This document shows, in pieces, positions 1-34,748 of a DNA stretch of 34,748 nucleotides. Position 1 is the first letter of the stretch. Each line of letters starts with the position of its first letter. The position numbers and the translations under genes were made by a program. Origin of the DNA: a virus; the IMG/VR virus record IMGVR_UViG_3300044825_000641, positions 1 through 34,748 of that record; one strand, written 5' to 3'. The notes beneath the pieces were generated by a model that was given only the letters and a program-made list of their open reading frames with translations, was not told the origin of the DNA and did not search any database.

Positions 1-451
1 ATTCTGGGGTTATCGTTGCCGCCATCGCAGAGCAACTCCTTGGTGTCGGCCATAGGTGCGGGTTGTTCACTTGATCCACTAATCTGATTTGGATTGGCTG
101 TCCATTCTCCCGATGCGTTTTGCCCTGTTTCAGCAGGCCAGAAGTCCCTCCGGCTCCCGTGTCTGGAGTTCGCCACAATCCAGATTCTTTCTCGTTTGTG
201 GTTTGCTCCAACGCTTGACGCTCCCAGCACTCCCCACCGCGCATCAAACCCCATCGCGGCCAAGTCTCCGAGAACTCGGTCAAGTCCTCGAGAAACGAGC
301 ATTGGTGAGTTTTCCACGAACACGAATCTTGGTCGTACTTCGTGAATGATCCTTGCCATTTCTCGCCACATTCCTGATCGCTCTCCATCAAGCCCATCTC
401 CTTTTCCTGCAATTGAGATGTCTTGGCATGGAAAGCCGCCAGATATGACAT
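1..451 (-). CDS. Overlapping +1-frame protein of the FHAKTS / WPRWG / LWPTP type, partial
   Basis: A second open frame, one base out of register with the methyltransferase, runs from an ATG at 451 to the window edge (150 codons, no stop). The ATG is preceded by GAGG with an 8-base gap, a usable ribosome-binding site inside the methyltransferase gene. The product reads MSYLAAFHAKTSQLQEKE near its start, then CGEKWQGSFTKYDQDS, WKTHQCSFLED, FSETWPRWGLMRGGECWE, SGLWRTPDTG and LWPTPRS. I recall these as signatures of a recurrent phage protein family often filed near methyltransferases. FHAKTS is the +1 reading of the methyltransferase motif GFPCQDIS, and TWPRWGLMRGG is the +1 reading of DLAAMGFDARWG. 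I infer an overprinted gene; its function is unknown. A methyltransferase assembled through a natural or sequencing frameshift is the main alternative. Confidence 0.6.
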   Translation of the reverse strand, partial: MSYLAAFHAKTSQLQEKEMGLMESDQECGEKWQGSFTKYDQDSCSWKTHQCSFLEDLTEFSETWPRWGLMRGGECWERQALEQTTNEKESGLWRTPDTGAGGTSGLLKQGKTHRENGQPIQIRLVDQVNNPHLWPTPRSCSAMAATITPE

Positions 452-656
452 CAACAATTCCTCGCCACGGTTTGCCGTCAAAGGTTTGAACGTCATCCCA
501 AATCGGGAAACTCGGGAGAAGTCCGTCATTTTGTCTGGCGGCAAGTACGCTAGCTGCGTAGGGCTCCCATTCGACTGCACAGACGGTTCGCCATCCGAGC
601 AAATGTCCCCCAAGTATTCCTCCACCAGCGCCCGCGAAAAGAGCCAGCTCATTCAT
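1..656 (-). CDS. DNA cytosine-5 methyltransferase, C-terminus beyond the window
   Basis: Transfers a methyl group from SAM to C5 of cytosine in DNA. The gene starts at 656 and stays open to position 1, so 218 codons of the N-terminal catalytic part are visible. Motif I is LFAGAGGG (residues 6-13). Motif IV, GGFPCQDIS, carries the catalytic Cys77. Motif VI is ENS (115-117) and motif VIII is HKRERIWIVA (153-162). The target-recognition region and motifs IX-X lie off the window. The start codon overlaps the stop of the preceding gene as ATGA, which suggests translational coupling. In a phage such an orphan enzyme usually protects against host restriction. The same DNA also carries a second open frame (separate entry). 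The family call is secure; target specificity cannot be read. Confidence 0.95.
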   Translation of the reverse strand, partial: MNELALFAGAGGGILGGHLLGWRTVCAVEWEPYAASVLAARQNDGLLPSFPIWDDVQTFDGKPWRGIVDVISGGFPCQDISIAGKGDGLDGERSGMWREMARIIHEVRPRFVFVENSPMLVSRGLDRVLGDLAAMGFDARWGVLGASSVGANHKRERIWIVANSRHGSRRDFWPAETGQNASGEWTANPNQISGSSEQPAPMADTKELLCDGGNDNPR

Positions 657-1529: not shown

Positions 1530-1551
1530 AAACTGTTTGCAACTTTGGTCA
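1530..1551 (-). promoter_or_regulatory. Operator-like AAACAGTTT site upstream of the left minus-strand operon
   Basis: On the minus strand this reads CTATGACCAAAGTTGCAAACAGTTT, ending 23 bases before the first start codon of the leftward operon at 1507. The core AAACAGTTT (1538-1530) is the motif found in three other promoters here. The CTATGA..AAAG.TTGCAAA part also recurs upstream of the small terminase gene at 30042-30058. A TTGCAA -35 and a GTTAAT -10 (15-base spacing) are possible but poor. Binding is inferred from repetition only. Confidence 0.4.
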
Positions 1552-1806: not shown

Positions 1807-1828
1807 AAAAAAACCCCAAATCCTTGGG
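1807..1828 (-). terminator. Rho-independent terminator of the candidate RNA
   Basis: On the minus strand a CCCAA / TTGGG stem (1828-1824 with 1819-1815) with a four-base loop is followed by G and then seven T (1813-1807). The stem is short but the U-tract is ideal. It gives the candidate RNA a defined 3' end and argues against the coding frame that crosses it. Confidence 0.6.
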
Positions 1829-1958
1829 TGGTGCGGCCTTGGCGGGCATCCTTGGAATAAGTCCTCATCACAGAAATGACCAATTCCAAGTCTTTTTCGC
1901 ACCACCGAAAAATTCGGGGTATGACTGTGATGAGATTCCAACAGGTGCCACCCTGCTG
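1807..1958 (-). ncRNA. Candidate pseudoknotted small RNA with intrinsic terminator
   Basis: Five complementary pairings fit one compact fold. Read 5' to 3' on the minus strand: hairpin 1958-1939 (7 pairs, one of them G-U only on the minus strand), a 10-base arm at 1934-1925, hairpin 1917-1905, a 9-base arm 1906-1898, an 8-base arm 1890-1883, then the partners 1873-1864 (pairs with 1934-1925), 1858-1851 (pairs with 1890-1883) and 1835-1827 (pairs with 1906-1898), then a terminator. The first pairing crosses the other two, which makes a pseudoknot. All three long arms are perfect. I cannot assign an RNA family. Phage-borne ornate RNAs such as GOLLD are one possibility to test. Confidence 0.55.
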
Positions 1959-6559: not shown

Positions 6560-7006
6560 CTACCATAACCCCATTTGTTTAAGAACGCCATAAATCACCG
6601 CAGCGGTTATTAAAATAATTCCCCACTCTTTTCGGGATTCCATCTGTTTGCGGTAGAACTCATCGTTTAATTCTCGGTGATCTTTGCGTAGTCTGACAAT
6701 AAGGGCCCGCACTTCGGACACGGCCTGCTTGCCAAATTCTTTCTCTACATCGCGGTACATGGCGGCTTCTGCGTCTTTAATCTGGCGAATGACCCGGTAC
6801 TCTTTGACCGCATCTATCCAGACCATATCGCCCCGGCGTTGAACTTCTTGCTGGCGGCGCTTCCAGGCTACTCTGGCCTTGGCTTCTTCGTCTAAAAAAC
6901 TGTTTACTTCTTTGGCGGTATCTTTGATCTCCCGCCCTACTTTTATTGCTTCCTTTATTCCCCCTAGTGCGGCCCTAACCGAAGCTGCTGGGTCTAAATC
7001 TGCCAT
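6560..7006 (-). CDS. Coiled-coil protein with C-terminal membrane anchor
   Basis: A 148-residue protein, almost wholly charged helix from residue 15 to 125, ending in a single membrane span (GIILITAAVIYGVLKQMGLW). Orientation of the basic flank predicts a tail-anchored protein with the coil in the cytoplasm. It is encoded between the other membrane coiled-coil protein and the holin, three bases from the former, so a role in lysis timing or late membrane events is likely. I know similar unannotated proteins in aquatic phages but no function. Confidence 0.7.
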   Translation of the reverse strand: MADLDPAASVRAALGGIKEAIKVGREIKDTAKEVNSFLDEEAKARVAWKRRQQEVQRRGDMVWIDAVKEYRVIRQIKDAEAAMYRDVEKEFGKQAVSEVRALIVRLRKDHRELNDEFYRKQMESRKEWGIILITAAVIYGVLKQMGLW

Positions 7007-26218: not shown

Positions 26219-26247
26219 ATTAGAAACCGTTTACCAATAGATGTCAA
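26219..26247 (-). promoter_or_regulatory. Scaffold/coat promoter with AAACGGTTT operator in the spacer
   Basis: On the minus strand TTGACA (26247-26242), a 17-base spacer and TCTAAT (26224-26219) form a near-consensus sigma70 promoter. AAACGGTTT (26232-26224) sits in the spacer and shares its last T with the -10 box, exactly as in the early promoter at 2043-2070. It lies in the 80-base gap between portal and scaffold and would give high, separately controlled output of scaffold, coat and the small coat-associated gene. Confidence 0.75.
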
Positions 26248-28413: not shown

Positions 28414-29709
28414 TTACCCCATCCATGAGCCCGGAATCTGGTAAACCGGCTTCTTTGGGCCAGCCTTCCGTGGTTCGTTTACCACCAATCCAATGTACCG
28501 AAACGCATCTGCACCGTGCGAATAAATGTCGTGCAGGGGCGCTTTGGAAAACTGTTTGGTATCTGGGTCAACATCATACCGATAGTGCCGCAAGCATTGT
28601 AGCCCCTGATAGCAGTTTTCCTTATCGAAATAGCACTTCGTAAACATCGTGCGAGCCGCGTTGATCGAGTCCGCAATCGGGGTTCTCGGTATGACCTGAA
28701 CCTTGTAATTGGCCTGCCGAACTATGTCCGCAATCGACCGACCAGCCGCCGCTAGAGTTGTGTTCTCGGCGTCATGGGGCAGCCAAATGGTGTCGTACAC
28801 ATACCCAAAGGACTGCATCTGGGCTAGGTAGTAGCTCATGGTCTTTTGGTTATCTTCCATGTACCGGATGAGCCGAATCTCAAAGCCTATGAACTGCACA
28901 AACCAAATGGCCGTGTTGTCCGCCCAGCCAAGGTCGAATACCGCGTGGACGGGTTTCACGGCGTCATACGGGACTTTGGTGATCCGGCCATCCATTTCAG
29001 CAAGCGTCAGCTCATGGGCAAATACCGCCCCATCGACCGTCCGGCGGCATAAGCCTTCCCAGACGTTTAGGTAGGCATCGTGATCCCTGACCTCTAGGTT
29101 CTCTTTCTCTTCCCGCAAGGTCTGTGGAAACCACGGGTTATCCCGCCAGGTAATCTTCTGGATTGTGGCGTTCTCCGGTGGGCTGATCACAAACCGCTGG
29201 TAGGTGTCGTCGGTCTCAAGCTCCGGGTTAAAGGTCACCCATATCTCGGAGCCGTCCTTACGGATCGTGGGAATCAGGATATTCCAGCTCGTTTTGGATA
29301 TGGTCTGTGCCTCTTCGCACCAGCAGATGTCCACGCCCTCAAAGGACTTGATGGACATGATGTTGTTTTTTAGGCCCACAAAAAAGAACTCGGTGCCGTT
29401 CCTACCCCTGATGCTGGTCTGGGTCACCTCATAGAACTCCGTTAGCCCAAGGGCGTCGATTTGGTCAGCCAATAGCTTATGGACTGAATCCTTAATCGAG
29501 ACCTGAAACTCCCGGGCGCAGAGAATCCGCAGCGGGTCTTTAGCTCCCTTAATCAGAAGCGCTCTAGCCACCCCCCAGCTCTTAGCTCCACCCCGGCCAC
29601 CGTACAGAACCTTGTACCGCTTGGGCTCAAACAGGCAGGCCAGCTTTACCGGAAACTCGGCCTTTGCAACCGCCTGGGCTAGTAGCTCTCTGTCCTCAAC
29701 CTCAGACAT
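28414..29709 (-). CDS. terL: Terminase large subunit
   Basis: A 431-residue packaging motor of the PBSX/Terminase_3 type. The ATPase domain has Walker A GGRGGAKS (37-44), Walker B DICWCEEA with Glu132-Glu133, and the coupling motif TFNP (159-162). The RNase-H-like nuclease has FDLGWAD (Asp259), PHDAE (Asp314) and HGADAFRY (Asp401) as metal ligands. It cuts concatemers and pumps DNA through the portal encoded next. The start overlaps the end of the small terminase gene by 8 bases. Confidence 0.96.
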   Translation of the reverse strand: MSEVEDRELLAQAVAKAEFPVKLACLFEPKRYKVLYGGRGGAKSWGVARALLIKGAKDPLRILCAREFQVSIKDSVHKLLADQIDALGLTEFYEVTQTSIRGRNGTEFFFVGLKNNIMSIKSFEGVDICWCEEAQTISKTSWNILIPTIRKDGSEIWVTFNPELETDDTYQRFVISPPENATIQKITWRDNPWFPQTLREEKENLEVRDHDAYLNVWEGLCRRTVDGAVFAHELTLAEMDGRITKVPYDAVKPVHAVFDLGWADNTAIWFVQFIGFEIRLIRYMEDNQKTMSYYLAQMQSFGYVYDTIWLPHDAENTTLAAAGRSIADIVRQANYKVQVIPRTPIADSINAARTMFTKCYFDKENCYQGLQCLRHYRYDVDPDTKQFSKAPLHDIYSHGADAFRYIGLVVNEPRKAGPKKPVYQIPGSWMG

Positions 29710-33364: not shown

Positions 33365-33689
33365 TTTGTGATTGTGCCTCTGGTTGTTGGTTCAGGCAAT
33401 AGACATTCACCATGCGCGGCCCTGTTTTTGCAGTTGTTGGCTTTCCCTTGATGCACTCCACCCGACCGGAGGCGACCAGCTTAAATAGCACCGCCTTTAC
33501 GGAATGATTCTTCGCATGAACCTTAATTGAGATTTCGCTGCGAGTTAGGTTCGGAGTCCGCTTTAAGACCTTCAGGATGTCTCGGGACAAAAACGGTCTG
33601 CGTCTGCGTTTCTTGGCTTCCATAGCAGAATTATAAACCGTTTGTTGTGGGGGCGGGTGTACCACAACCTGAATCTCACCACTACTCAT
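33357..33689 (-). CDS. Small DNA-binding winged-helix-like protein
   Basis: A 110-residue protein. From residue 23 it reads MEAKKRRRRPFLSRDILKVL, then NLTRSEISIKVHAKNHSVKA and VLFKLVASGRVECIKGKP: a basic N-terminus, a helix-turn-helix and a wing. Such proteins regulate transcription or replication. The start at 33689 overlaps the RusA gene as ATGA with GGGGG upstream. A perfect TATAAT with the AAACNGTTT motif lies just before Met23 (ATG at 33623), so an 88-residue form may be made from a leaderless transcript. It is one candidate to bind the AAACNGTTT sites. Confidence 0.65.
   Translation of the reverse strand: MSSGEIQVVVHPPPQQTVYNSAMEAKKRRRRPFLSRDILKVLKRTPNLTRSEISIKVHAKNHSVKAVLFKLVASGRVECIKGKPTTAKTGPRMVNVYCLNQQPEAQSQNG
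33630..33643 (-). promoter_or_regulatory. Internal promoter element with AAACGGTTT and TATAAT
   Basis: On the minus strand AAACGGTT is directly followed by TATAAT (33635-33630), the same geometry as the early and scaffold promoters. No good -35 lies 16-18 bases upstream (CCCGCC), so an activator or alternative contact would be needed. Transcription from it would start within about seven bases of the ATG at 33623. Confidence 0.45.
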
Positions 33690-34045
33690 TCTGTGCCGCC
33701 CCCAAGTAATCTTACCTTGATCATTCCCCCAATTTGTTGGCTGACTTTATATTCGCAGTCGATCCGGTTGTCGTTGATGTTCCAGGCGTCCGCAAGACCA
33801 TCCTGACCGGCCTTGAACGACCCAATCATATTGTCCTGATCCCGCTTTCTTTTATCTGGTGGGTAGAACTCAATTTCTAGTTTGATCTTTCCTTCTTCGG
33901 GTAAGGCCCACTTAGCCTGCATCGCTAAGACCCTGACAGCGAACCGATACTTTTTCTTGGCCGACGCCTGGGGCGCCCAATGGCCAGAGTAGTTAGGGCT
34001 TAGTTCCTTGGGCGGCCAAGGTAAACATAATCTATCTTTATTCAT
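33686..34045 (-). CDS. rusA: RusA-type Holliday junction resolvase
   Basis: A 119-residue resolvase that cuts four-way junctions before packaging. The N-terminus LCLPWPPKELSPNYSGHW is typical, and the metal site is RDQDN (two Asp), DGLADAW and NINDNRID, the D-x-D...D pattern of RusA. The ATG at 34045 overlaps the preceding stop as ATGA; in-frame upstream ATG (34054) and TTG (34060) also exist. Placed beside late genes, it likely supplies unbranched DNA to the terminase. Length is standard (E. coli RusA 120). Confidence 0.9.
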   Translation of the reverse strand: MNKDRLCLPWPPKELSPNYSGHWAPQASAKKKYRFAVRVLAMQAKWALPEEGKIKLEIEFYPPDKRKRDQDNMIGSFKAGQDGLADAWNINDNRIDCEYKVSQQIGGMIKVRLLGGGTE

Positions 34046-34748
34046 TCCGTACATTCGCAAGGTAAATCAAACCCAACAAATGGCAAAGTAATTTGAGCTT
34101 GATGCATCATTATTATTTCTTTCCATGCGTAATTTCTTCCTAACCCTTTAATTATCGTAAGTTCAGCATTTTCTTCCATTTTTAATGCTCTGTTTAATAA
34201 ATTTGGATGTTTTTCATACAAATCAATTATTTCTTTTGGTTTGCTTGATGGGCAAAAAAAACAAGCTGATTTTCCGGGTAAAGTAATACCCGATTTTTTT
34301 ATTGTTTCAATACATTCTTCACGTTCCCATCCCCATTCAATTAGAGGAAATTTGTAATCGTATTGTTTATCAATTCTTTTTAATGCATTTTCTTTACGGC
34401 GCTCTTCGCCTGCATCGTAACCAATATATTTAATAACTTTTAATCCGTTGGCCCAGGCATCAATAGCAGGTTGCCATTGTTTTATAAATTTGTGTTGTGG
34501 TCTTATTTTAAAATGATCGGAACAACGTTTAAAACCATAAGCTATACTCGGCAAAGATTTTAAATTTTGACATTCTTGTTCCAATGTAACTTTTACCCCA
34601 TCTTTTTCTTTTTGAACAATTATTATTTCGGGATAATTTTTATTTTTTAACCAATTAGAAAAATTTTTTATATGTTCATAAATTTCTGGACGTTCTGCGC
34701 CGGTGTCGGCAAATAAAATTAAATCTATTGGTTGTTTTTGATTTACAA
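34042..34748 (-). CDS. PAPS-reductase/ATP-pyrophosphatase-family protein, N-terminus beyond the window
   Basis: The frame is open to the right edge, so at least 235 codons are visible. LILFADTGAERPEIYEHI is the part just after the PP-loop in the PAPS-reductase-like superfamily, whose SGGKDS motif would lie off the window. SIAYGFKRCSDHFKIRPQHK and the Cys pair CFFCP follow. Phage members are of unknown function; relatives include DndC-type sulfur-modification enzymes and sulfonucleotide reductases. The gene is strikingly AT-rich (long T and A runs, ATA and TTA codons) beside GC-balanced neighbours, which suggests recent acquisition. It ends in an ATGA overlap with rusA. Confidence 0.8.
   Translation of the reverse strand, partial: VNQKQPIDLILFADTGAERPEIYEHIKNFSNWLKNKNYPEIIIVQKEKDGVKVTLEQECQNLKSLPSIAYGFKRCSDHFKIRPQHKFIKQWQPAIDAWANGLKVIKYIGYDAGEERRKENALKRIDKQYDYKFPLIEWGWEREECIETIKKSGITLPGKSACFFCPSSKPKEIIDLYEKHPNLLNRALKMEENAELTIIKGLGRNYAWKEIIMMHQAQITLPFVGFDLPCECTE

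Follow-up and report, generated by a model that had tools for sequence, protein, structure and literature searches.

A pseudoknotted phage RNA, leader or noncoding, that matches no Rfam family

Results

The DNA analysed here, which we call the window, is the IMG/VR virus record IMGVR_UViG_3300044825_000641 at its full length of 34,748 nt (positions 1–34,748). Its terminase and portal genes run leftward, on the minus strand, and an RNA element lies upstream of the leftward genes and points in the same direction. On the other strand, upstream of the RNA, there are recombination genes: among the 67 loci that we compared, a YqaJ-exonuclease cluster is found in 44 and an SSB cluster in 37, and other genes follow downstream of the RNA on its own strand. 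In most relatives the element lies opposite the early recombination operon. The leader of that operon contains a hairpin-like stretch, CGGTCAACGCTCAGACCGG, at 2079–2100 of the window (plus strand), which is kept in relatives. The record begins within a cytosine methyltransferase gene (1–655, minus strand) that runs off its start, and a PAPS-reductase-like gene lies at the opposite end (34042–34581, minus strand). We searched the window for a terminal repeat of 15–200 bases and found none; the record is not demonstrably circular.

Sequence comparison confirms that the minus strand from 1960 to 1807 specifies a structured RNA that is genuine but unregistered. It has about 154 nt, from its GUCAGC start to the last of seven U, and is conserved on its own as a homologous unit. 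We are nearly certain of its existence and architecture. The sequence-only reading, made before any homologue was compared, had placed the RNA at 1807–1958. The 3′ end at 1807 stands, and the 5′ end is most likely 1960 because of a −10-like box (TANNNT) that keeps a fixed spacing of 6 nt. In the window this box belongs to a predicted promoter on the minus strand (1995–1967, TCGACT – 17 nt – TACAAT), whose −10 element ends 6 nt before the RNA start. A TANNNT at exactly this distance is present in 47 of 54 upstream regions of types A–C (the RNA types are described below) and in all 13 of type D; if distances of 4–8 nt are allowed, the counts are 52/54 and 13/13, compared with 0–5 at control offsets.

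The RNA ends in the seven U of a predicted intrinsic terminator (1813–1807, minus strand), and U runs are kept in all complete homologues. The earlier claim that the RNA carries its own terminator, a stem plus seven U, needs to be amended in one respect. The U-tract is as described, but the stem is the long helix P2 and not a separate hairpin at 1828–1815, which is an alternative pairing observed in type A alone. In every complete family member P2 runs directly up to the U-tract. A GC-rich stem stands directly before a U-tract and downstream of a promoter-like box, the arrangement by which we recognise an intrinsic-terminator leader.

The palindrome AAACNGTTT occurs six times in the window (1530–1538, 2057–2065, 6897–6905, 26224–26232, 28549–28557 and 33635–33643), where 0.8 copies are expected, and two of these copies lie in promoter-like regions that flank the RNA. 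Across 69 loci the palindrome is found near the early promoters in 41 and in the promoter of the RNA in none. This distribution suggests that early promoters and RNA promoter are controlled separately, and AAACNGTTT is a possible repressor operator. It also fits a different view of the element, according to which the 154-nt RNA released at the terminator is the end product, working in trans as a stable structural RNA (a protein binder, decoy or oligomer-former), and read-through would be incidental. Such an RNA would have its own promoter-like box, free of AAACNGTTT (0/69 RNA promoters against 41/69 upstream regions), its own U-tract and a compact fold with a kissing loop. We return to this view below and consider it somewhat unlikely.

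Relatives of the window were located through the YqaJ exonuclease gene. In them the RNA unit is about 71–89% identical where it aligns in full. The conserved block is uneven and some relatives keep just the unit 1808–1960, which indicates that the RNA is a module. In the IMG/VR viral collection two search patterns gave 113 matching stretches. A pattern based on the 5′ hairpin accounts for 90 stretches in viral contigs, which together with one member from a genome contig yield 58 complete distinct RNAs. The second pattern, built from another RNA that occupies this position in three loci (L008, L010 and L019), accounts for the other 23. Judging from these sequences, an intricately folded small RNA appears to head one block of genes in many freshwater-type phages.

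Other searches were less productive. The pattern CTCATCACAG...GGTGGTGCG had seven matches in viral contigs, and the five that we inspected were chance-like, in coding or unrelated DNA. Of 13 pattern matches in genome contigs only one (L162) had a family-like continuation, the others being chance-like. A descriptor scan of the fetched loci for further RNA types returned, among the matches listed, known members and otherwise mostly chance. In isolated phages neither the RNA nor its versions in types B and C had a match, and the unit of locus L074 had none in isolated phages or in plasmids.

The member from a genome contig (L193, G001:C17:540000-556000) is a type B RNA in a 582-kb contig of an Akkermansiaceae metagenome-assembled genome. 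Its neighbours are an HNH-like gene and a YqaJ-like exonuclease, and genes of chromosomal type are near (names from reading translations); for these reasons the region looks like a prophage. Its occurrence in this family is a clue to the host of this phage group. No other member was found in 195 genomes of the family and 288 of the phylum. The locus also bears on the idea that phage DNA replication starts at an origin between divergent operons and is primed or regulated there by the transcript, in the form of a structured pre-primer RNA. In the window the RNA does sit at a divergent junction and adjoins replication and recombination genes. In L193, however, the genes on both sides share one strand, so the RNA is not always at a divergent junction, and we consider a role as primer highly improbable.

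RNAs of four types, A–D, share one plan: a 5′ hairpin (H1), a helix P1 that crosses P2 to make a pseudoknot, P2 itself ending at the U-tract, a helix P3, a hairpin P4, and a kissing loop between H1 and P4. The sequence-only reading had recognised three perfect arms in crossing order, of 10 bp (1934–1925 with 1873–1864), 9 bp (1906–1898 with 1835–1827) and 8 bp (1890–1883 with 1858–1851), and all three are there. The first is P1 (1864–1934), which is lengthened by one G–U and extendable by 1938–1935 with 1858–1855. The second is real but not a whole helix; it is the inner part of the 22-bp P2 (1920–1898 with 1835–1813, made up of 1920–1908 with 1825–1813 and 1906–1898 with 1835–1827), a stem of about 20–22 bp across types. 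The third is P3 (1851–1890), although its 3′ strand, 1858–1851, may instead extend P1. Since P3 and the P1 extension have this strand in common (1858–1851 and 1858–1855), they cannot both form fully.

Two further hairpins that flank the arms had been noted. H1 is formed by 1958–1952 with 1945–1939 (loop GUGGCA at 1951–1946). P4 (1847–1836, GCC-CGCCAA-GGC) with its loop CGCCAA was missed. Positions 1843–1840 of the P4 loop pair with 1950–1947 of the H1 loop. The kissing pair is UGGC with GCCA in the window and UGGCA with UGCCA in many relatives, and in type D it is UGAC with GUCA, a compensatory change relative to types A–C.

That these pairings are unlikely to arise by chance is borne out. The region folds better than all of 200 shuffled sequences (z = −5.3). 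The covariance check that had been proposed, in which relatives without compensatory changes would speak against the structure, turned up such changes in the homologues and the structure was not refuted. In 14 type A sequences 95.2% of cells are paired, compared with at most 57.5% in slid controls. Two-sided changes occur at 13 pairs, a number reached by none of 500 shuffles. In type D 98.5% of cells are paired and two-sided cells number 44 where 12.4 are expected, but the “pair types” measure was not above shuffles in this type. In H1 99% of cells are paired and three of the seven pairs show two-sided changes. The first search pattern contained H1 and GGAA, hence the conservation of these letters is partly by construction; conservation of the variable letters of H1 and of all other helices is independent of the pattern.

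The crossing helices were also tested by exchanging strands between members. For P1 the energy of own strands compared with swapped strands is −19.2 vs −11.5 kcal/mol in type A, −24.5 vs −15.5 in type B, −29.9 vs −21.0 in type C and −17.3 vs −10.0 in type D, and the own value was reached by 0/5000 permutations in types A, B and D and by 3/5000 in type C. With types A–C pooled, 36 of 50 alleles have no better partner than their own 3′ strand. For P2 the values are −35.4 vs −18.5 kcal/mol over all types (0/5000). The same test is strong for P3 in type B (0/5000), weaker in type A (8/5000) and not significant in types C (324/5000) and D (1314/5000), where there are few variants. The RNA is thus pseudoknotted, as had been proposed.

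The assignment to the minus strand also holds, because G–U pairs that would be A–C on the other strand recur in the helices of homologues. This observation is relevant to the possibility that the conserved features act at the DNA level, as inverted repeats or as sites where a protein binds or cassettes are exchanged, with the RNA fold as a by-product. Inverted repeats (GTCAGC...GCTGAC) do flank the unit, and bodies have been exchanged between similar flanks. Against this stand the recurring G–U pairs, valid only in minus-strand RNA, the separate covariation of nested and crossing helices, and the promoter-like box at fixed spacing. We regard an explanation at the DNA level as extremely improbable.

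P1 is hypervariable yet complementary. Its two strands show mean differences of 0.38 and 0.50 in type A, as opposed to 0.09 for the rest of the RNA; from these means P1 alleles appear to diverge about 4–6 times faster than the remainder. Two loci (L028 and L032) with flanks 96–98% identical have one difference in the rest of the RNA and ten in P1. Conversely, the pairs L014/L036 and L027/L035 have a common P1 allele in flanks that are merely 79–85% identical, which indicates that alleles are exchanged between backgrounds. Perhaps P1 alleles are under diversifying selection. Drift in a helix whose sequence is unconstrained, together with recombination, could also account for the diversity, and the single-stranded loop adjoining P1 is variable as well.

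Downstream of the U-tract, GCUGAC (1797–1792, minus strand) is complementary to the 5′ end of the RNA (1960–1955). This pairing, P0, is GUCAGC with GCUGAC in types A–C and GUCGGAA with UUCCGAC in type D. P0 and H1 use the same 5′ strand and are mutually exclusive. One following domain (TGCGCGAAACGCCAGC) has GCTGAC in front of it where the RNA is of type B or C, but CCGAC where the RNA is of type D; since this domain occurs after either type of RNA, the P0 letters belong with the RNA. The proposal of P0 draws mainly on this one type-level change and a few one-sided variants, and the complementarity could instead reflect inverted repeats in the DNA.

The sequence that follows is itself a structured RNA domain with its own pseudoknot (1797–1550, minus strand; “module 2”, of the D1 kind). 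Two-sided changes are present in 25 of 38 consensus pairs and 517 of 532 cells are paired (counts without a shuffle control), and the additional pseudoknot, CARCGA with UCGYUG, covaries. First RNA and second domain together come to about 410 nt. An ORF of at least 50 aa starts no more than 16 nt from the end of the second domain in 6 of 31 D1 members. The pairing across the terminator and the adjoining domain lend support to an option raised by the sequence-only reading, that the element is one domain of a larger phage RNA.

By eye there are about five kinds of domains that follow the same RNA, one of which holds a stretch like a tRNA T-arm (L081: CGGTTCAAGTCCG), with no tRNA called. In relatives such as L074 and L109, which are phage-type loci, the domain directly after the RNA is Rfam Betaproteobacteria-1 (RF02932; L074:4072-3951, E = 2.5e-13, and L109:12541-12421, both minus strand and above the cut-off of 49.4 bits). 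Neither the RNA nor the window's second domain reaches this cut-off. The second domain had no match in plasmids, and in phages one record with a weak 49-base stretch. Betaproteobacteria-1 was found in 2 of 120 bacterial genomes from the order of a Herbaspirillum genome, and no such pseudoknot RNA was seen ahead of it when we read the two loci by eye.

A search with 4227 Rfam 15 families, among them ribozymes, riboswitches, tmRNA and phage RNAs, gave no match in the window at curated cut-offs. Lax filters returned chance-level matches only (E 1.8–2.4), and the GOLLD and ROOL covariance models did not match. The Rfam check suggested earlier therefore agrees with the view that no known phage feature explains the RNA. 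A search for tRNA or tmRNA found none. Of the functions that had been raised, a regulatory RNA and one domain of a larger RNA may each apply; a ribozyme gained no positive evidence: no Rfam ribozyme model matches, and on inspection the topology differs from HDV-like or other self-cleaving ribozymes.

Discussion

Our results support the earlier interpretation of the locus as regards structure, strand and the lack of a known family. What the RNA does is harder to say. Our tentative preference, which falls a little short of even probability, is that it is a conditional terminator or leader of the leftward operon. From the features of the sequence we infer a course of transcription, termination, read-through and switching with an effect on downstream genes. 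Transcription would start at about 1960 and run leftward. The first 154 nt would fold into a compact domain in which P1 and P2 cross, probably side by side, held by P3 and the H1–P4 kissing loop. Because P2 ends on the U-tract, this domain could act as an intrinsic terminator that releases a small RNA. On read-through, GCUGAC after the U-tract would pair with the RNA's own 5′ end as P0, breaking H1 and the kissing contact since it takes the 5′ strand of H1. The second domain would then fold ahead of the leftward replication and late genes. There would thus be two mutually exclusive states, H1 with the kissing loop or P0, and the output would be either a small RNA or a leader mRNA.

Several observations favour the leader model: a fold that covaries in four types, with the −10-like box at a constant 6 nt and P2 abutting the U-tract; a P0 that tracks the type of RNA and not the following domain; a following sequence that also covaries as an RNA of this strand; the position of the RNA, upstream of leftward genes and, in most relatives, facing the early recombination operon on the other strand; and the ORF soon after the second domain in 6/31 D1 members. 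Other points speak against it. The loop closed by P2 has about 60 nt, and termination at P2 may be slow or weak for this reason. Read by eye, many relatives seem to have a separate promoter for the next gene (TTGCAAAC...TATTCT), which therefore need not depend on read-through. We found no structure that would open P2; the exclusive pairs are H1 versus P0 and P3 versus the P1 extension. Finally, a switch alone leaves the fast diversification of P1 unexplained.

An RNA that works by itself in trans is the somewhat unlikely view introduced above. That RNA bodies are found ahead of different following domains agrees with it, but P0 complementarity past the terminator and a constant following RNA domain suggest that the longer transcript matters. 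Moreover, a target for the variable arm was sought in the phage's own genome without yielding a candidate: words of the own P1 arm are hardly commoner there than those of other alleles (0.076 vs 0.070 per word).

The nascent RNA could also bind RNA polymerase, like the putRNA of phage HK022, and cause terminators to be ignored along the leftward unit. The putRNA is an RNA element described as acting in nascent form, to suppress pausing as well as termination in the early genes of phages (PMC9378689). Like it, the RNA described here would be a phage leader that opens a transcription unit and could act on polymerase; it is compact and is predicted to start at about +1, in front of a very long operon. 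It differs in being a pseudoknot with its own terminator stem, whose most variable helix is a major structural element, and we think an antitermination role of this kind very unlikely.

Among other phage RNAs, the 6S RNA of phage lambda (the pR′–tR′ leader) is likewise short, terminated and followed by a long late unit; the RNA in the window differs by its conserved, covarying fold. The pRNA of phi29 (Phage_pRNA) is another small RNA from a phage, whose complementary loops could join molecules. The RNA in the window is also small with complementary loops, but it has another fold and no Rfam match, and its phage has ordinary terminase and portal genes. GOLLD and ROOL are phage- or prophage-encoded, elaborate, pseudoknotted RNAs with kissing loops, whose function is unknown (PMC12286853). 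Our RNA resembles them in all these features of origin and fold. Theirs, however, measure about 600–800 nt or more and are often near tRNA islands, whereas ours is about 154 nt long, or about 410 nt if the second domain is counted, and came with neither a tRNA nor an Rfam match. Going by sequence, it is a new phage structured leader or noncoding RNA that matches no Rfam family.

In P1 letters are exchanged from phage to phage while the two strands stay complementary, a pattern that hints at a recognition code or a switch. P1 may be a paired identity code, in which the scaffold stays the same, both strands are swapped together and RNAs or nascent transcripts recognise their own kind in trans. 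We consider this distinctly unlikely. If it were true, the code could serve superinfection exclusion or allele-specific assembly, with selection for new alleles. In a limited literature search we came across no close parallel to such a paired, shuffled helix, and we know of none.

The RNA represents a common but unregistered phage RNA family, with strong covariation and a long-stem pseudoknot built into its terminator. It also links Betaproteobacteria-1, an orphan Rfam family, with a phage locus. The way in which P1 is shuffled in evolution is unusual, and it could reveal self-recognition or competition among phages at the level of RNA.
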